The notes below the pieces were generated by a model. That model was not told the origin of the DNA. It saw only the letters and a list, made by a program, of their open reading frames with translations, and did no database searches. The position numbers and the translations under genes are program-made. 64,000 nt of DNA. It comes from Bacillus sp. SJS. Its GTDB lineage: Bacteria > Bacillota > Bacilli > Bacillales > Bacillaceae. How positions within the stretch are numbered: position 1 is the stretch's first letter; each line of letters opens with the position of its first letter. The stretch lies in contig NZ_JAQV02000031.1 of assembly GCF_000732485.2 (NCBI RefSeq), forward strand, positions 496,001 to 560,000, read 5' to 3'. Below, piece by piece: positions 19,902 to 29,578 of this stretch.

Positions 19902-20750
19902 TTAGAGGCTATTTAACATTTCCGCTACACCATGTTCATCATTTGTACCGAAAATGGTGTCGCTTATGTCCTTAATTTCAATTCTTGCATTTCCCATTGC
20001 GTATCCTTTTCCCGCCGTTCTTATCATCGATTCATCATTCATGCTGTCTCCTATTGCTGCTGTTTCTGATAGCGGGATCGAAAGTCTTTTTGCAAGCTTT
20101 GTCAAAGCCAAGCCTTTTGATGCTTTTTCATGTTCAAGCTCGAAATTATGATTGGCTGATGTTACGATCGTCAATCCTTCTCTTTCTTTGAATTCGTTCC
20201 AGCCGGTTTTTCTTTTTTCTTCATCAAAAGAAAACGCAAGTATATTATAGATTTCGGCCTCTCCAGGAATGTCCGTAAAGGATTCAATAAATGAAAATCC
20301 GGATTGGCTGTATTGCTTGGATGCAGCTTGCTGCAATTCCTGAATGGATACTTCGGGATTTGAACTGCTGATCCGGTCCATTTCAATTTGAAGCAGCTCA
20401 CGCCCTCTTTGGGGTGTATAGATGAAATGGCTGCTGAAAACTTCATAATAAAAATCATTTTCCTCAAGCCAAGCCATTATTCCATCGGCCTCTTCCCTAT
20501 CTATAGGAACAGAATGGAAAAGGGTTCCATCAGGATGGTGAATGGTAGCACCGTTTGCTGCTATTATCCAAGGATTAAGACCGGTGCCGGTAAATATTTT
20601 CTGTACATCGAAATGGGCCCTGCCTGTTGCAATAACAACCTGAATGCCTCTTTCTTCAGCCTTTTTAATCGCTGATACGTTTTCTTCACTAATTTGGTTT
20701 TTGCTGTTCAAGAGGGTTCCATCCAAATCAATAGCTGCGAGCTTAATCAT
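19902..20750 (-). CDS. Cof-type HAD-IIB phosphatase
   Basis: A 282-residue haloacid dehalogenase phosphatase of the Cof subfamily, which usually dephosphorylates sugar phosphates or flavin nucleotides. Motif I DLDGTLLNS (nucleophile Asp8), motif II VIATGR, the Lys of motif III (EKASKG) and motif IV GDSMNDESM are all present, with a C2b cap in the middle. The start overlaps the stop of the DeoR-type regulator by 4 bases, so it is translationally coupled and probably under that regulator's control. Confidence 0.88.
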   Translation of the reverse strand: MIKLAAIDLDGTLLNSKNQISEENVSAIKKAEERGIQVVIATGRAHFDVQKIFTGTGLNPWIIAANGATIHHPDGTLFHSVPIDREEADGIMAWLEENDFYYEVFSSHFIYTPQRGRELLQIEMDRISSSNPEVSIQELQQAASKQYSQSGFSFIESFTDIPGEAEIYNILAFSFDEEKRKTGWNEFKEREGLTIVTSANHNFELEHEKASKGLALTKLAKRLSIPLSETAAIGDSMNDESMIRTAGKGYAMGNARIEIKDISDTIFGTNDEHGVAEMLNSL

Positions 20751-21520
20751 CCTGTTTCCTCCGTATCTGCTATTAATAGTTCTACATGGTTTTTTTCTAA
20801 TACGGTCATCATGTTCTCAGAAGGTTCTCTATCCGTGATAACAATATCGATTTCTGACAGATCGGCGAACTTAAAAAAGTCTGTAATCTCCATCTTAGAG
20901 TGGTCCGCTAGAATGATTACCTGTTCTGCCTGCTTCAGCATTCTTCTTTTCACCATTCCATCCTCTTCATGTGCAATGGTCAATCCATGTTCGGAAATCC
21001 CGACGAGACCGATAAAAGCCTTTTCGACGTGATAGTTCGCTAATTTATCCAGTACAGCAGATCCGTATAAAAAACCGTGCTCCTTTTGCAATTCTCCCCC
21101 AAGAAGATGGATTTGAATGCCTCTCTTTCCAGCAAGGATTCCCGCTTGGTGGATGGAGTTTGTAATGACCGTGCAATCCTCTTCAGACAGAGATTCGGCA
21201 CATGCCTGAACAGTGGTGGAAGAATCAAGAATGACACGGTCTCCCGATAAGATGAGTGAAGCGGCTTTTTTACCAATTCTCTCTTTTTCAGCCGATACGT
21301 GCTTTAAACGATTGGTATAGTCTCTTATTTTGTGGTGAGCTGATGGCAGAATAGCTCCGCCTCGTGTCCGGATTACCGCCTTTATTTCTTCGAGCTTGAC
21401 TAAGTCTCTTCTGGCAGTATCCCTCGATACTTGATATATAGAACAGATTTGCTCTATAGATATTCTTTTTTCAGTTCTTAAATAATCTATGATTGCCTCA
21501 AGTCGCTCTTCTTGATACAT
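20747..21520 (-). CDS. DeoR family transcriptional regulator
   Basis: A 257-residue regulator. The N-terminal helix-turn-helix is ISIEQICSIYQVSRDTARRDLVKLEE (split: IEQICSIYQVSRDTARRDL), followed by the DeoR sugar-phosphate sensor domain with DSSTTVQACAESL and ITNSIHQAG. The start at 21520 has AAGGCGGA upstream. An extension to 21580 lacks a site and crosses the promoter. It is the first gene of an operon with a Cof phosphatase, so the inducer is likely a phosphorylated sugar. Phased repeats in front of it suggest autoregulation. Confidence 0.88.
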   Translation of the reverse strand: MYQEERLEAIIDYLRTEKRISIEQICSIYQVSRDTARRDLVKLEEIKAVIRTRGGAILPSAHHKIRDYTNRLKHVSAEKERIGKKAASLILSGDRVILDSSTTVQACAESLSEEDCTVITNSIHQAGILAGKRGIQIHLLGGELQKEHGFLYGSAVLDKLANYHVEKAFIGLVGISEHGLTIAHEEDGMVKRRMLKQAEQVIILADHSKMEITDFFKFADLSEIDIVITDREPSENMMTVLEKNHVELLIADTEETG

Positions 21521-21535
21521 TAATATCCGCCTTCG

Positions 21536-21570
21536 TAAGTAATAATAAGTAATACATAAGTTATTATAAG
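21536..21570. promoter_or_regulatory. phased TAAGTAATA repeats, candidate DeoR operator
   Basis: TAAGTAATA occurs at 21536 and 21546, TAAGTTATT at 21557 and TAAG again at 21567, close to one helical turn apart. The block overlaps and follows the -10 box of the DeoR promoter. Confidence 0.55.
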
Positions 21571-21591
21571 CAATTAACATATTTGATGCAA
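21563..21591 (-). promoter_or_regulatory. sigma-A promoter of the DeoR-HAD operon
   Basis: Leftward -35 TTGCAT (21586-21591), 17-base spacer, -10 TATAAT (21563-21568). Confidence 0.75.
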
Positions 21592-21679
21592 CCGCACAAA
21601 AAACTTTTTCGGTTTACATATTTTTAATCATTTAAGGGTATTGATTTGAAAGAAAGATATTTTGCGAGGAGAGCTGAAA

Positions 21680-21901
21680 ATGAGAGAAACGACAATCCAG
21701 GTTAAAGAGCCGCTGAATGAAGAGAGAATTCAAATGATTGAATCACGTCTTGCTCAAACGGAAGGAATTGAGAGGGCTTTAGTGGATATTGAGTCTGGAA
21801 GCATTTGGATTTCGTATAATGAAATGCAAATAGCTCCAGAACTGATTATGAAAGCTTTAAGTGAGCATGGCATGCAATCAGAAGAGATTCAAAACGCTTA
21901 A
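21680..21901 (+). CDS. HMA-like small protein lacking the metal cysteines
   Basis: A 73-residue protein with the beta-alpha-beta-beta-alpha-beta rhythm of heavy-metal-associated domains (TTIQVKEPLNEERIQMIES, GIERALVDIESGSIWISYNE, ELIMKALSEHGM), but with no CxxC, so copper binding is unlikely. The start at 21680 has GAGGAG 8 bases upstream; a TTG 6 codons earlier would overlap that site. Upstream, GGTTTAC (21611) and GGGTAT (21636) resemble sigma-B boxes, but their 18-base spacing is longer than normal. Function is unknown. Confidence 0.68.
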   Translation: MRETTIQVKEPLNEERIQMIESRLAQTEGIERALVDIESGSIWISYNEMQIAPELIMKALSEHGMQSEEIQNA

Positions 21902-21939
21902 AAGCCCAGCCAGGTTTTAACCTGGCTGGGCTTTTTTTT
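21901..21939. terminator. strong bidirectional terminator
   Basis: Perfect AAGCCCAGCCAGG / CCTGGCTGGGCTT stem with a 6-base loop and T tail. It lies between the HMA-like gene and the converging egtD. Confidence 0.92.
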
Positions 21940-21940
21940 G

Positions 21941-22906
21941 CTACCTTAATTCAAGATAGTGGAGACTGAACAGCCTGTTTTGATCTGTCCAGAATTTTCT
22001 TGCTGCAAAACCGCTCTTTGATGCAAGGTTGTGAAATTCCTCCACTTCATACTTATAGGAATTTTCCGTATGGATCGTTTCTCCTCTTTGAATAACAATC
22101 TCTTCTGATTGAATGGTCACTTTCTGATCTTTCTGGCTAATAATATGCATTTCTATTCTGCCTTTTTCCTCGTTGTAAAAAGCATGATGGCGGTATGCAT
22201 CCAATGCGAAGTCCGCACCGAGCTCACGGTTCATCCTTCTCAGCAGATTCAGATTAAACTCTGCAGTAATCCCTCTGGCATCATTATAAGCTGAATGTAA
22301 AATATGGCTCTCCTTTTTCAAATCTACCCCTACTAAAAACCCGTCCCCTTTTTCAAGCATGGCTGCAACCGTATCTAAAAAAGCACCGGCTTCGCGGGGT
22401 TCAAAATTTCCAATTGTCGATCCAGGGAAAAAGGCGGCTTTTTTCCGGCAATTCAAATCAGGCAAGGTCATTGGAGCCGTATAATCCCCCGAGACTGCAT
22501 GAATATGAAGGGTGGGATAATCGTGAGCAAGCTTCAAGCTGGAAGCATATAAAAATTCCTTGGAAATATCAATCGGCACATAGACGGATAAATCTTTAAG
22601 GGACTGCAGCAGGATTTGAATTTTACGGCTGCTGCCGCTTCCGAACTCTATAAGTGCAGCTTCCGGACCAATCAGCAGTGCTATTTCATTCTTCACACTT
22701 TCCAAAATATCAATTTCAGTTCTAGTAGGGTAGTACTCAGCTAGATTCGTAATTTCCTCAAATAACTCAGAGCCTCTTTCATCATAAAGGAATTTTGCAG
22801 GCAGGGTTTTCGGCACACGCTTTAAACCATCTAACACCTCTGTTAAAAAACTGGAATATTCAACTCCGTTATCCGTAAACTGTATGGCCTGCTTCAATGT
22901 TGTCAT
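21941..22906 (-). CDS. egtD: L-histidine N-alpha-methyltransferase EgtD
   Basis: A 321-residue SAM-dependent methyltransferase that converts histidine to hercynine, the first step of ergothioneine synthesis. Family segments are clear: PAKFLYDERGSELFEEI, EYYPTRTE, IEFGSGSSRKI (SAM site), FFPGSTIGNFEP and GVDLKKE. Length is as in mycobacterial EgtD. Its start overlaps the egtB stop by 4 bases, giving an egtB-egtD operon. No egtA, egtC or egtE is nearby. Confidence 0.92.
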   Translation of the reverse strand: MTTLKQAIQFTDNGVEYSSFLTEVLDGLKRVPKTLPAKFLYDERGSELFEEITNLAEYYPTRTEIDILESVKNEIALLIGPEAALIEFGSGSSRKIQILLQSLKDLSVYVPIDISKEFLYASSLKLAHDYPTLHIHAVSGDYTAPMTLPDLNCRKKAAFFPGSTIGNFEPREAGAFLDTVAAMLEKGDGFLVGVDLKKESHILHSAYNDARGITAEFNLNLLRRMNRELGADFALDAYRHHAFYNEEKGRIEMHIISQKDQKVTIQSEEIVIQRGETIHTENSYKYEVEEFHNLASKSGFAARKFWTDQNRLFSLHYLELR

Positions 22907-24168
22907 TCCGCATCCTCCGCAAGACGAAATCCGCTGAACTGCCAGCGTTTTTCAGGCTGAAAGAAATTCCGGTAAGAAGATCGTATGTGAGAAGAAGACG
23001 TTGCGCAAGAGCCTCCTCGCAGAACCATCTGGTTACACATGAATTTGGCGTTGTATTCACCCAGGGCTCCTTCAAGAGGTTTGCTGCCCGGATAAGGAGA
23101 ATAAGCACTTGCCGTCCATTCCCATACATCTCCATACGCCTGATGGAATTTGCCGTTCCCGCTTTTTGCCGGACAGGGATGAAAATTGCGGCTTTCAACA
23201 AAATTCCCTTCGCAGTCGGTATTTTCAAGAGCGTGTTCCCATTCAGCTTCAGTCGGAAGGCGCTTTCCTGCCCATCTGGCATAGGCATCCGCTTCATAGA
23301 AACTCACATGGCATACTGGCTCATCGAGGCTGATTTTTTTCTGTCCTCCAAGTGTGAAGGTATTCCATCCGTCATCTGCCATAAACCAGTACATAGGAGC
23401 AGTCCATGCCTCTTTTTTAATGTAAGCCCAGCCATCGGAGAGCCAATATTCAGGCTTTTGATAGCCGCCGGCCTCTATGAATTTCAAATAATCGCCATTT
23501 GTAACTGGATGGGATGCCAGGGAAAATGGCTGTAAATAAACTTTGTGTCTTGGAGATTCATTGTCAAAACAAAAATCGCCTCCGCTGTGTCCAATTTCGG
23601 CCAGCCCTCCATCTACTGGGATCATCGTACATTCACTGCTATTCAATCCAGAAGATTCAGAAGGCTCTGAGTAGACAGGGAGCAGCGGGTTTTGGGAGAA
23701 ATTATATTTAATATCTGTCAGCAGCAGCTCCTGATGCTGCTGTTCGTGCTGCAGACCGATTTCAAGCAAATCCAGTACAAGCTCTGCTTTGCTTTCAGGC
23801 AGATTATTAAGAAGCTTCTCTATATGTGCGTTCACGTAATTCCGGTAAGAAAAAACCTCTCTCGCTGTGGGCCTTGTCAGTAAACCCCTCTGGTTCCTTG
23901 GGTGAAAAGGTCCGATCGTCTCATAATAGGAATTAAACAAATAATCAAACTGAGGATTAAGCTCCTCATACTGGGGCAAATGATCTTTAAGAATGAAGCG
24001 TTCAAAGAACCAGGTAGTATGGGCAAGATGCCATTTCGGAGGGCTCGCATCTGCCATACCCTGTACAACAAAATCCTCGGTTTCAAGCGGCTCCGTTAAA
24101 TGCTCTGATAAGTACCGAATCTCTTTAAAGCGCTTTAGCATTTGTTTTTGATCATTTTGAAGCAGCAT
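22903..24168 (-). CDS. egtB: ergothioneine biosynthesis sulfoxide synthase EgtB
   Basis: A 421-residue non-heme iron enzyme that joins hercynine to a thiol donor to give a sulfoxide. The N-terminal DinB-like domain carries the predicted iron ligands His50 (LAHTTWFFE) and His141/His145 (LQHEQQHQEL). The C-terminal formylglycine-generating-enzyme-like domain runs from about 190 (FSLASHPVTNGDYLKFIEAGG, RLPTEAEWEHAL, GDVWEWT, RGGSCAT). GGAGG lies before the ATG at 24168. Whether it uses gamma-glutamylcysteine, cysteine or another thiol cannot be read directly; lack of EgtC nearby makes free cysteine a reasonable guess. Confidence 0.92.
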   Translation of the reverse strand: MLLQNDQKQMLKRFKEIRYLSEHLTEPLETEDFVVQGMADASPPKWHLAHTTWFFERFILKDHLPQYEELNPQFDYLFNSYYETIGPFHPRNQRGLLTRPTAREVFSYRNYVNAHIEKLLNNLPESKAELVLDLLEIGLQHEQQHQELLLTDIKYNFSQNPLLPVYSEPSESSGLNSSECTMIPVDGGLAEIGHSGGDFCFDNESPRHKVYLQPFSLASHPVTNGDYLKFIEAGGYQKPEYWLSDGWAYIKKEAWTAPMYWFMADDGWNTFTLGGQKKISLDEPVCHVSFYEADAYARWAGKRLPTEAEWEHALENTDCEGNFVESRNFHPCPAKSGNGKFHQAYGDVWEWTASAYSPYPGSKPLEGALGEYNAKFMCNQMVLRGGSCATSSSHIRSSYRNFFQPEKRWQFSGFRLAEDAE

Positions 24169-24329
24169 GATTTTCCTCCCTGATATGGACAGACCCTTTC
24201 CGTCCAAAAATAAAATCAACAGCTTTACTCATAATCTGAGTTTTACCACGAATAAGAAAGGCGAAACCTTGGAATGTTTTCTTGTAATATTTCCAGTATA
24301 GACGATGCCTGAATCGAGAAGAGTAAAAA

Positions 24330-24364
24330 TTTTGTTAATTTTCATCCTTGAAAAATTAACAAAA
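24330..24364. promoter_or_regulatory. perfect AT-rich inverted repeat upstream of egtB
   Basis: TTTTGTTAATTTT (24330-24342) and AAAATTAACAAAA (24352-24364) are perfect complements with a 9-base centre. It lies upstream of a TATACT box (about 24298-24303) for the egtBD operon and beside the galM terminator. It could be an operator or part of a compound terminator. Confidence 0.45.
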
Positions 24365-24394
24365 AAAAGACAGCAGAAAAGCTGTCTTTTTTTA
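24361..24394 (-). terminator. terminator of the galactose mutarotase gene
   Basis: AAAGACAGC / GCTGTCTTT stem with a 6-base loop, T runs on both sides, starting at the stop codon. Confidence 0.88.
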
Positions 24395-25435
24395 TTTAAC
24401 AGAAAATGTCCATTTCGTCTCTGCCTGGTATTTTTCGCCCTTTTTCAGAATAATGGACGGGAATGAATCTTGGTGGACGGCATCAGGGGGAAATTGCGTC
24501 TCAAGGCAAACGGCCATATGCTTCTCTGCAGTCTTTCCTTCCTGCAGCACAATATCATCACCCATTGAATTGCTTGTATACACAATGACAGCAGGCTGAT
24601 CTGTTTCCACTGTAAGAAGGCGTCCGCTGTTAGCTTCATAAAGGATCATCTCCTTCCCTTCATCAAGCAGGAACGGATGATCATAACCACCGCCGGCAAT
24701 TTTTATTTGTTCGTGATCGGAGAAGATTCCATCCTTCAGTTTCCTGCCTTGCCGGAAGTCAAAGACCGTTCCTTCTGTTTCAAGCTCTCTCCCTGTAGGC
24801 AATGATTCATCATCGAGCTCCAGGTAATGGACGCTTGGAAGGGTCAGCTCATGTTCAGCTATCGAATCTTTGACAGAACCGCTCAAATTAAAATAGGTAT
24901 GATTCGTCATATTCAGAACAGTATCCCGATCCGTTCTTCCTTCATAGGTCAAAATTAATTCGTTTTTCTCCGTTAACCTGTAAGTTACTTTCACCTCAAG
25001 ATTTCCTGGAAACCCTTCTTCTCCATCTGGACTAAAGTAAGTAAATACAACTGCTGCATCTTGCTCAGATTCAATTGCATGTGAAGACCAAACCCTGTGA
25101 CTGAATCCTTTTTCTCCGCCATGCAGGTGATTGCCTTCCTGGTTCGCAGTTACCTGATAGGTTTTTCTGTTTACAGGCAGATGCCCTTTTCCGATTCTTC
25201 CTCCTACACGCCCGACTACCGCCCCAAAATAAGGAACTCTATGTATATAATCCTCCAGCTCCCTGCAGCCGAGTACGATATTTTCAACCCTTCCATCCCT
25301 GTCAGGCGTTACAATTCTGGTTATCGCACAGCCGTATTCCATGCATTCAACCTCTACTCCATTGCTGTTTCTTATTCTGTAGCCATAAACATCCTGACCG
25401 TCCAATTGACCAAATATCTTTTTTTCTGCCTTCAT
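24392..25435 (-). CDS. aldose 1-epimerase (galactose mutarotase)
   Basis: A 347-residue beta-sandwich enzyme that interconverts alpha and beta anomers of aldoses. Active-site regions are visible: GNHLHGGEKGFSHRVW (His), NMTNHTYFNLSG (His), and the Glu in AVCLETQFPPDA. The start at 25435 has AAGGAG 8 bases upstream. It stands alone with its own promoter and terminator, away from other galactose genes. Confidence 0.9.
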   Translation of the reverse strand: MKAEKKIFGQLDGQDVYGYRIRNSNGVEVECMEYGCAITRIVTPDRDGRVENIVLGCRELEDYIHRVPYFGAVVGRVGGRIGKGHLPVNRKTYQVTANQEGNHLHGGEKGFSHRVWSSHAIESEQDAAVVFTYFSPDGEEGFPGNLEVKVTYRLTEKNELILTYEGRTDRDTVLNMTNHTYFNLSGSVKDSIAEHELTLPSVHYLELDDESLPTGRELETEGTVFDFRQGRKLKDGIFSDHEQIKIAGGGYDHPFLLDEGKEMILYEANSGRLLTVETDQPAVIVYTSNSMGDDIVLQEGKTAEKHMAVCLETQFPPDAVHQDSFPSIILKKGEKYQAETKWTFSVK

Positions 25436-25475
25436 AACGGACTCCTTCCAGCCTTTATCTGATTCTATTAAATTG

Positions 25476-25504
25476 AGCATAATCTTAATGCTATACGTTG
25501 TAAA
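25476..25504 (-). promoter_or_regulatory. sigma-A promoter of the mutarotase gene
   Basis: Leftward -35 TTTACA (25499-25504), 17-base spacer, -10 TATGCT (25476-25481). Confidence 0.6.
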
Positions 25505-25612
25505 GTTTCACGAGAGGAAGCTTTTGGCATATTTTTCGATCCAATCGGATTACAAGATGTTAAAAGGGGAAAAGAACAGGAGTGTGACAATATATAACTA
25601 GGAGTGTGAATA

Positions 25613-26746
25613 ATGAGAGCAGTTACTTATCAAGGCAGTGAGAAGATCGAAGTAAAACAGGTGGAGGATCCAAGGATTCAGGAGAACAGCGATATGATCG
25701 TTAAAATTACCTCTACCGCAATTTGCGGATCAGACCTTCACCTCTATCAAGGAAATATGCCTATAAATAAGGATTATGTAATTGGCCATGAACCGATGGG
25801 AATCGTTGAAGAGGTCGGTTCTGAGGTTACAAAGGTAAAAAAAGGCGACCGGGTAGTTATCCCATTTAATATTGGGTGCGGAACATGCTTCTACTGCAGC
25901 AATCAGATGGAAAGCCAATGCGACAACTCCAATCCTATGGGAGATCAGGGAGGACTTTTTGGATTCACTGAAATGTTCGGAGGTCACCCTGGGGGACAGG
26001 CTGAATACCTGCGCGTACCTTATGCTGACTTTACCTCTTTTGTAGTGCCAGAATCCTGTGAACGCGAAGATGAAGACCTTCTTTTCATGTCTGATGTACT
26101 TCCTACCGCATACTGGAGTGTAGAAAACGCAGGAGTTAAAGCCGGAGATACAGTGATTGTCCTTGGCTGCGGACCTGTTGGTCTAATGGCGCAAAAGTTT
26201 GCAGCAATGGCTGGAGCAGAGCGGGTTATTGCTGTCGATCAGCTCGATTATCGATTAAATAAAGCGAAAAAGATGAATTCAGTTGAAACATTTGATTTTA
26301 CCAGTACGGATGACCCCGGCTCTTATCTGCACGAATTTACAAAGGGCGGAGCAGATGTTGTAATCGATTGTGTAGGAATGGATGGAAGAATGACGGCTAT
26401 GGAAAAAATCGGCCAGAAGTTTAAGCTTCATGGCGGAAGTCTTGGTCCAATCCGAATCGCTTCTGAAGCCGTCCGTAAATTCGGAACCATTCAGCTGACA
26501 GGTGTTTATGGAGAATCCTATAACGACTTTCCGCTTGGAGATATTTTTTCCAGAAATATCACCGTCAAAACAGGACAGGCACCTGTCATCCACTTTATGC
26601 CAAAACTGTTTGACATGATTCAATCCAATCAAATCGTTCCTTCCGAGATTGTCTCGCACAAAATCTCGCTGGACGAAGCTTCCCATGCATATAACATTTT
26701 CAATGATCATGAAGATGAGTGTGTAAAAGTTGTTTTGAAACCATAA
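25613..26746 (+). CDS. zinc-dependent alcohol dehydrogenase (formaldehyde dehydrogenase-like)
   Basis: A 377-residue medium-chain dehydrogenase. Catalytic zinc ligands are Cys in ICGSDLH and the HEPMG motif; the structural zinc set is CGTCFYCSNQMESQC (Cys-x2-Cys-x2-Cys-x7-Cys). The NAD-binding motif is GCGPVGLMA. The long insertion after the structural zinc resembles glutathione-independent formaldehyde dehydrogenases and B. subtilis AdhB. The ribosome site lies in the second of two AGGAGTGTGA direct repeats (25579 and 25601). The substrate is uncertain. Confidence 0.88.
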   Translation: MRAVTYQGSEKIEVKQVEDPRIQENSDMIVKITSTAICGSDLHLYQGNMPINKDYVIGHEPMGIVEEVGSEVTKVKKGDRVVIPFNIGCGTCFYCSNQMESQCDNSNPMGDQGGLFGFTEMFGGHPGGQAEYLRVPYADFTSFVVPESCEREDEDLLFMSDVLPTAYWSVENAGVKAGDTVIVLGCGPVGLMAQKFAAMAGAERVIAVDQLDYRLNKAKKMNSVETFDFTSTDDPGSYLHEFTKGGADVVIDCVGMDGRMTAMEKIGQKFKLHGGSLGPIRIASEAVRKFGTIQLTGVYGESYNDFPLGDIFSRNITVKTGQAPVIHFMPKLFDMIQSNQIVPSEIVSHKISLDEASHAYNIFNDHEDECVKVVLKP

Positions 26747-28825: not shown

Positions 28826-29578
28826 TTGACGAATAAGATGCTGAGTGATGAATTATTTAAAAAGACACTGGATTCTACTCATGTTGGAATTACCATAACT
28901 GATCCGTCCCTGCCGGATAATCCGCTCATTTATGTAAATAAAGGATTTGCAGAGATGACAGGCTATTCCTATGAAGAGGTTCTGGGAAAAAACTGCCGTT
29001 TTCTTCAAGGCAGGAATACAAGTTATGAGACGGTTGGGAGGATTAAAATGGCGCTGAAAGAAAATAAGCCAATCCTCACTGACATTATGAATTACAGGAA
29101 AGACGGCTCCTCCTTTTGGAACGAATTACATATCGAACCTGCCTTTGTGGAAAGTGAACATAAAACTTATTTTATCGGTATTCAAAAGAATGTAACAAAA
29201 CAAAAAGAATACCTTGAAAGAATTACTGAGCTTTCCACTCCAATTGTTCCCATCAGTGACAATCTTTCCGTTCTTCCGTTAATAGGAGAGCTTAGCAACA
29301 AAAGATCCGAAGAACTCATGAATTCCGTTTCTGCCTATGCTTCCACTATTAAAAATCATGCCATCATAGTGGACCTGTCAGGACTGATTAAGGTAGAAAA
29401 AGATGAGGTTGCAAGTTTGCTGAAGCTTTTTAATGTATTGAATATGATGGGGACAGAATTGATATTAACAGGTGTCACTCCTATGCTCATACTGCAAACG
29501 AGCACTGAATTGATTGAGGAGCTTTCCATTATTCGGACGTATATGAACGTGAAACAGGCCATTGATGCGTTTAATTAA
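28826..29578 (+). CDS. ytvA: LOV-STAS blue-light photoreceptor, YtvA-like
   Basis: A 250-residue blue-light sensor. The LOV domain (about 10-115) holds the photoactive Cys57 in GKNCRFLQG and the FMN-contact motif YRKDGSSFWNEL. Next come a linker helix (NVTKQKEYLERI), the conserved STPIVPISDNLSVLPLIGEL, and a STAS domain (DHAIIVDLSGLIKVE). This is closer to B. subtilis YtvA than the copy at 2656-3483. The start is a TTG with GGGAGG 7 bases upstream. In B. subtilis YtvA feeds light into the stressosome and sigma-B. Confidence 0.9.
   Translation: MTNKMLSDELFKKTLDSTHVGITITDPSLPDNPLIYVNKGFAEMTGYSYEEVLGKNCRFLQGRNTSYETVGRIKMALKENKPILTDIMNYRKDGSSFWNELHIEPAFVESEHKTYFIGIQKNVTKQKEYLERITELSTPIVPISDNLSVLPLIGELSNKRSEELMNSVSAYASTIKNHAIIVDLSGLIKVEKDEVASLLKLFNVLNMMGTELILTGVTPMLILQTSTELIEELSIIRTYMNVKQAIDAFN

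Follow-up and report, generated by a model that had tools for sequence, protein, structure and literature searches.

An Intact egtB-egtD Operon Predicted To Support Cysteine-Fed Ergothioneine Synthesis in Bacillus sp. SJS and Repeated Loss of egtD beside a Retained egtB in Bacilli

Bacillus sp. SJS carries an intact egtB-egtD operon on the minus strand at positions 21941 to 24168 of the window (the whole stretch of 64,000 nucleotides analyzed here). Judged from its sequence, the operon very probably serves aerobic type II ergothioneine synthesis fed by cysteine, and this pathway most likely stands beside that of bacillithiol. The operon itself is of a known kind; the more interesting fact is that bacilli have repeatedly lost egtD while keeping egtB. 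In the proposed pathway, EgtD would trimethylate histidine to hercynine with S-adenosylmethionine as the donor, and EgtB, a non-heme iron enzyme, would convert hercynine, cysteine, and O2 to hercynyl-cysteine sulfoxide. The C-S bond would then be cut by a nondedicated pyridoxal phosphate (PLP) enzyme, or by PLP itself, and the sulfenic acid would be brought to ergothioneine by a cell thiol, for example, bacillithiol or cysteine. The cysteine donor, the lyase, the reductant, and production in the cell are parts of this scheme that we infer.

Organization of the egtBD locus

The egtB gene (22903-24168, minus strand) begins with ATG and encodes a predicted type II sulfoxide synthase of 421 amino acids with DinB_2 and FGE-sulfatase domains. 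The egtD gene (21941-22906, minus strand) encodes a predicted histidine N-alpha-trimethyltransferase of 321 amino acids that matches the Pfam family Methyltransf_33. The egtB stop and the egtD start overlap by 4 bases in the sequence ATGA (22903-22906, minus strand), as the first-pass annotation had reported, and translation of the two genes is likely coupled through this overlap. Likely ribosome-binding sites precede both genes on the minus strand, GGGAGG (24175-24180) for egtB and GGAGG (22914-22918) for egtD. Because GGGAGG sits 6 bases ahead of the ATG, an alternative egtB reading frame that starts with TTG and reaches 24219 is probably an over-extension.

The operon is probably a separate transcription unit. 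A terminator-like hairpin detected by the terminator scan (24362-24393, minus strand) closes the galM-like gene upstream, which suggests that egtBD has its own promoter; a sigma-70 promoter scan listed none before egtB, and its total for the region was 5, against 5.4 in shuffled sequence. A search of positions 20000 to 26000 against Rfam gave 0 matches. Downstream, the terminator scan and the sequence revealed a hairpin of 16 pairs (21900-21935) between egtD and a small convergent gene; it scored as a terminator for the plus-strand gene only, the minus strand offering only four T residues, which lie within the stem end. The convergent gene (21680-21901, plus strand) encodes an HMA-like, copper-chaperone-like protein of 73 amino acids that falls below curated cutoffs and is kept in four syntenic genomes of the genus. 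Farther away, an open reading frame at 28826-29578 (plus strand) contains NCRFLQG, which we take to be the motif of LOV blue-light sensors, and it may thus encode a light sensor 4.7 kb from the antioxidant operon.

Comparison with a strain of the same species (G076) showed a divergent patch at 23100-24450, covering egtB and its upstream region, in which identity is 81 to 97% per 150 bases, whereas the flanking regions are mostly 98 to 100% identical. Within the patch, G076 is slightly closer to another species of the genus (G073). This looks as if recombination had replaced the allele in one strain or the other, an exchange that seems to be confined to egtB.

Active sites of EgtD and EgtB

EgtD scored 406.8 bits against the NCBIfam model TIGR03438 (cutoff, 290.9), in agreement with the first-pass description of the protein as full length. 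It is 40% identical (116/291) to the mycobacterial EgtD chain and retains the residues at all six positions checked (mycobacterial Y39, Y56, N166, Y206, E282, and S284), which we take to be the substrate residues of that enzyme.

EgtB matched the NCBIfam model TIGR03440 with 591.4 bits (cutoff, 360) over model positions 2 to 413 of 413, a score that, like that of EgtD, is much too high to arise by chance. Its best three matches among solved structures were all EgtB of Chloracidobacterium thermophilum (8qf6, 6qki, and 6o6l; ~531 bits, E of ~1e-158), aligned over residues 5 to 420 of 421, followed at a distance by mycobacterial EgtB (159 bits), OvsA (121 to 128), SenA (123), and EgtB-IV (90 to 107). 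The first-pass annotation had credited EgtB with a complete set of iron ligands and an FGE-like domain. The domain was detected together with DinB_2, and His50, His141, and His145 align with H62, H153, and H157 of the Chloracidobacterium enzyme (chain number minus 3), which are presumably its iron ligands. These three histidines are invariant in all 38 of the EgtB rows that are accompanied by EgtD. Tyr81-Tyr82 align with the tyrosine pair of the same enzyme, and Tyr93-Tyr94 is described as the catalytic pair of the cysteine-preferring Chloracidobacterium EgtB (PMC10903977). EgtB of the window is therefore most likely of the type II, cysteine-using kind. The likeness is not complete, as the residue after Asn373 is Ala in 36 of the 38 bacillar rows with EgtD but Gly in the Chloracidobacterium enzyme and in 27 of 29 rows from other bacteria.

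Decay or silencing of the operon in the window's lineage is unlikely. Such a fate would fit the 26 of 68 EgtB-bearing genomes of the order in which EgtD is broken or gone, as well as the genus member G075, in which both genes are missing. However, the reading frames in the window are full length, the checked catalytic residues are in place, the ribosome-binding sites are good, and EgtD is 100% identical between the window and strain G076. Comparison of egtB from G076 with egtB from G073, another genome of the genus, gave a dN/dS ratio of 0.10.

Distribution and ancestry in bacilli

Since bacilli generally rely on bacillithiol, the first-pass annotation regarded a second redox thiol as unexpected. 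That expectation was not supported, because 68 of the 397 genomes searched in the order have EgtB, and these represent 24 of 135 genera; EgtB is thus more widespread in bacilli than had been supposed, and the operon of the window is accordingly less surprising. These 68 genomes are drafts with completeness of 98 to 100% (contamination of 7% in G131). Of 398 genomes sampled from the class, 27 have EgtB, and 23 of these belong to other orders. Within the genus of the window, five of six genomes have EgtB, the exception being G075, and in four of the five egtB lies among the same neighbors. None of 74 genomes from the remaining five genera of the family has EgtB. Two genomes, G773 and G325, contain two EgtB genes each, with two EgtD matches beside them in G773 and one in G325.

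Named bacilli with EgtB include Fictibacillus norfolkensis, F. arsenicus, and F. fluitans. The first two (L035 and L036) have EgtB-EgtD pairs like that of the window, with EgtB 63% identical, whereas in F. fluitans (L037) no EgtD reading frame was present within the 13 kb around egtB that make up the examined locus.

A phylogeny of EgtB had been proposed in the first-pass annotation as a check on its ancestry. A careful tree built from 92 rows has a branch, with support of 100/99, that separates 65 bacillar EgtBs from 27 sequences of other bacteria; the same separation appeared, with support of 99, in a quick tree with 94 rows. Both were built under the plain LG+G4 model, and the rows of other bacteria were 29 sequences (27 in the careful tree) chosen from the best 80 of at least 566 pattern-search matches. 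The careful tree omits L045 and L074, which have long branches, and both trees leave out G253 (without EgtD) and six more loci from genus g16, each of which has EgtD. Tree distances of EgtB and EgtD across 38 bacillar operons were closely correlated (r of 0.94; 0 of 1,000 shuffles as high), which indicates that egtB and egtD have mostly moved together within bacilli.

The same annotation considered acquisition by transfer possible. For a recent arrival in the genus from outside the bacilli, which we regard as quite unlikely, one could cite the 74 EgtB-free genomes in the rest of the family and the EgtD tree, in which no split sets the bacilli apart as a group (3 changes). Against it stand the 100/99 split in the EgtB tree, the shared neighbors in four of the five EgtB-bearing genomes of the genus, and an ordinary G+C content (0.46 in egtB and 0.42 in egtD, compared with 0.44 in the window). 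Recent transfer from a nonbacillar source is therefore not favored; given the absence of EgtB from the family's other five genera, transfer between bacilli is possible.

Sulfur donor and remaining pathway steps

Ergothioneine synthesis in mycobacteria relies on a five-gene cluster, egtABCDE, with which the pair in the window has EgtD and the EgtB reaction type in common. The mycobacterial donor is described as gamma-glutamylcysteine (PMC11993508), whereas the two genes of the window probably work with cysteine. A parallel in layout is Methylobacterium, in which egtB and egtD are in tandem, as in the window, with the other egt genes apart, and in which deletion of egtBD abolished ergothioneine (PMC4621440). 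In strain 22A, homologs of egtA, egtC, and egtE are reported elsewhere in the genome, whereas in the window genome none exceeded its cutoff with the models tried.

These models were PF04107 (GCS2, EgtA-like), TIGR03442 (EgtC), and TIGR04343 (EgtE), with PF04262 and the GshF fusion lying outside the searches, which leaves some room for a supply of gamma-glutamylcysteine. GCS2 was found in none of the six genomes of the genus, and EgtC exceeded its cutoff in none of the six, with weak partial matches only in G074 and G075. EgtE exceeded its cutoff in none of 31 bacillar genomes, the best match reaching 83 of the 400 bits required (G000). Within the reach of these models, the observation that EgtA, EgtC, and EgtE are not adjacent to egtBD extends from the locus to the genome.

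A classical five-enzyme route, in which EgtB would use gamma-glutamylcysteine and EgtA, EgtC, and EgtE would be encoded elsewhere, is on these data very unlikely. It could draw on the weak EgtE-family matches in all 31 bacillar genomes and on the TIGR03440 model, which, as we understand it, also covers the mycobacterial enzyme. However, all 14 control genomes gave such weak matches too, so these look like aminotransferase class V background and do not point to a dedicated EgtE in the 31 genomes. GCS2 and EgtC are also missing across the genus at the cutoffs used, and EgtB is far nearer to the cysteine-using enzyme (531 versus 159 bits). Together with the tyrosine pair, these results support the first-pass proposal that EgtB may take cysteine directly. 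An EgtB of the selenoneine (SenA) or ovothiol (OvoA) type is more improbable still, since its scores with the SenA model NF041186 (362.6 bits) and the OvoA N-terminal model TIGR04344 (138.9 bits), although appreciable, lie below the cutoffs of 420 and 400 while the EgtB model was exceeded (591 versus 360), egtB is coupled to egtD, and the seven neighboring proteins scanned belong to other Pfam families.

For the cysteine-fed pathway, the C-S lyase is probably nondedicated. This had been the first-pass suggestion, paired with a genome search for an EgtE-like enzyme, and the search result is consistent with it. Ten neighbor genes beside sister operons were scanned for an adjoining lyase; nine matched Pfam families other than those of PLP enzymes, and one had no match. 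C-S cleavage is reported to occur at a very low level even with PLP alone, and thiols can finish the conversion of the sulfenic acid (PMC4493562). Yeast given one fungal gene for a methyltransferase and sulfoxide synthase yielded some ergothioneine (PMC11993508). Ergothioneine-making cyanobacteria without egtC or egtE orthologs are described, as is egtB-egtD without the remaining cluster in other organisms (PMC7278568).

A thiol for the last step may be at hand in bacillithiol. BshC, an enzyme of its synthesis, was found in all 31 genomes searched, comprising 30 with EgtB, the window genome included, and G075. The search covered BshC alone of the set BshA, BshB, and BshC, and its presence leads us to expect bacillithiol synthesis beside ergothioneine. 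In one genome with EgtB and EgtD, BshC is in three pieces (G112:C1:1117546-1118645), and this organism might lean on ergothioneine.

Among 69 bacillar genomes with examined loci, 21 have a gene for an NADPH-dependent FMN reductase (PF03358) no more than 300 bases from egtB or egtD and in the same orientation (for example, L123:8555-9181, L133, L129, and L035), with F. norfolkensis present under a second locus too in this survey; in one of the 21 (G431) the gene is truncated. In F. norfolkensis it directly precedes egtB, unlike in the window, whose genome has a homolog elsewhere (71% identity). Matches at an E value of 1e-50 or lower occurred in 52 of 68 genomes with EgtB and 62 of 329 without, kinship being ignored in this comparison. 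As a guess, the reductase might supply electrons for reduction of the sulfenic acid or for the iron.

EgtB without EgtD

EgtD losses were called by PF10017 searches of the draft genomes of the same 397 members of the order. The 50 genomes with a match comprise 42 with full-length EgtD, 4 with only remnants of egtD beside egtB (G099, G440, G190, and G142), and 4 without EgtB whose matches are weak and partial. All 42 genomes with full-length EgtD have EgtB, and full-length EgtD without EgtB was found in 0 of 397. Intact EgtD is, by comparison, absent from 26 of the 68 EgtB genomes of the order, with G387, G156, G261, G374, G333, G241, G088, G389, G184, G285, and G117 among the genomes concerned, and likewise from G074, which belongs to the window's own genus. 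Of the 23 EgtB genomes that the class sample contains from other orders, 2 lack EgtD.

On the careful tree, EgtD presence (38 rows with and 27 without) requires 17 changes, 16 of them forced by starred branches, a count that alone does not tell loss from gain. We infer loss because remnants exist and because the EgtB and EgtD trees match. In genus g26, the gene order around the gap is largely the same with and without egtD. Wreckage of egtD is readable in G440; a remnant can also be made out by eye in G422, although this genome is labeled as lacking EgtD on the tree.

G301, G383, and G344 have one deletion scar in common along its length, and the divergence of their egtB genes therefore probably postdates the loss of egtD. 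The dN/dS ratios of egtB among the three are 0.121, 0.091, and 0.104 at dS of 0.13 to 0.21, indicating purifying selection, and pairs that keep EgtD have values of 0.04 to 0.16. The pairs G389-G237, G156-G117, and G358-G435, with saturated synonymous sites, and G237-G262, with a dS of 3.1, were left unused. However, G364 (L180), with an intact EgtD, nests among the three scar-sharing genomes, so regain or recombination also occurred and the timing of the loss is less sure.

Among the EgtB rows without EgtD, the catalytic histidines and tyrosine are intact in 22 of 23. G117 (L148) lacks the catalytic residues, and EgtB of G262 (L188) is cut short by an internal TAG. Judged by these residues, the majority of solo EgtBs seem functional, and a few seem to be dying. 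No column of the alignment was diagnostic for an active-site difference between EgtBs with and without EgtD. The most different column is position 140, where 33 of 38 rows with EgtD carry Gln and the 23 rows without it carry Gln (10), Asn (10), His (2), and Trp (1); departures at otherwise invariant columns come mostly from G117 and G262, both apparently broken. With 26 of 68 EgtB genomes lacking intact EgtD and G075 lacking both genes, the ergothioneine pathway is often dispensable.

Possible role of solo EgtB and implications

The repeated dropping of egtD with a conserved EgtB mostly kept could mean that bacillar EgtB has a role independent of the cell's own EgtD, an idea that we hold in even balance with its negation. 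In its simplest form, EgtB would be a scavenging synthase that sulfurizes imported hercynine made by other microbes, and the window's complete operon would represent the ancestral, self-sufficient version of that pathway; in a bolder variant, solo EgtBs would have shifted to another imidazole or thiol substrate. Hercynine (histidine betaine) and mercaptohistidine betaine, possibly ergothioneine, are reported from a soil-crust cyanobacterium and were depleted there over time, and the isolates described as tested, including two of Bacillus, did not consume these betaines (PMC4595634). Escherichia coli with another ergothioneine synthase made more ergothioneine when hercynine was fed than when it was made internally (PMC9516567); the lone enzyme discussed in the relevant part of that paper is EgtD without its partner rather than EgtB without EgtD. 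Taken together, the soil-crust hercynine and the feeding result make putative hercynine import the simplest reading of EgtB kept without EgtD, which it would explain.

One passage about this phylum in a review names nonproducers only, namely, B. subtilis, C. perfringens, and L. casei (PMC11993508). Among the literature matches listed, neither native egtBD in bacilli nor EgtB retained without EgtD is described; subscription literature was mostly outside the scope of this search, so novelty is unproven. On the evidence of these genomes, many bacilli are predicted to make ergothioneine as well as bacillithiol. If solo EgtBs use imported hercynine, then ergothioneine would be a shared soil resource, with the precursor made by some microbes and the finishing done by others.
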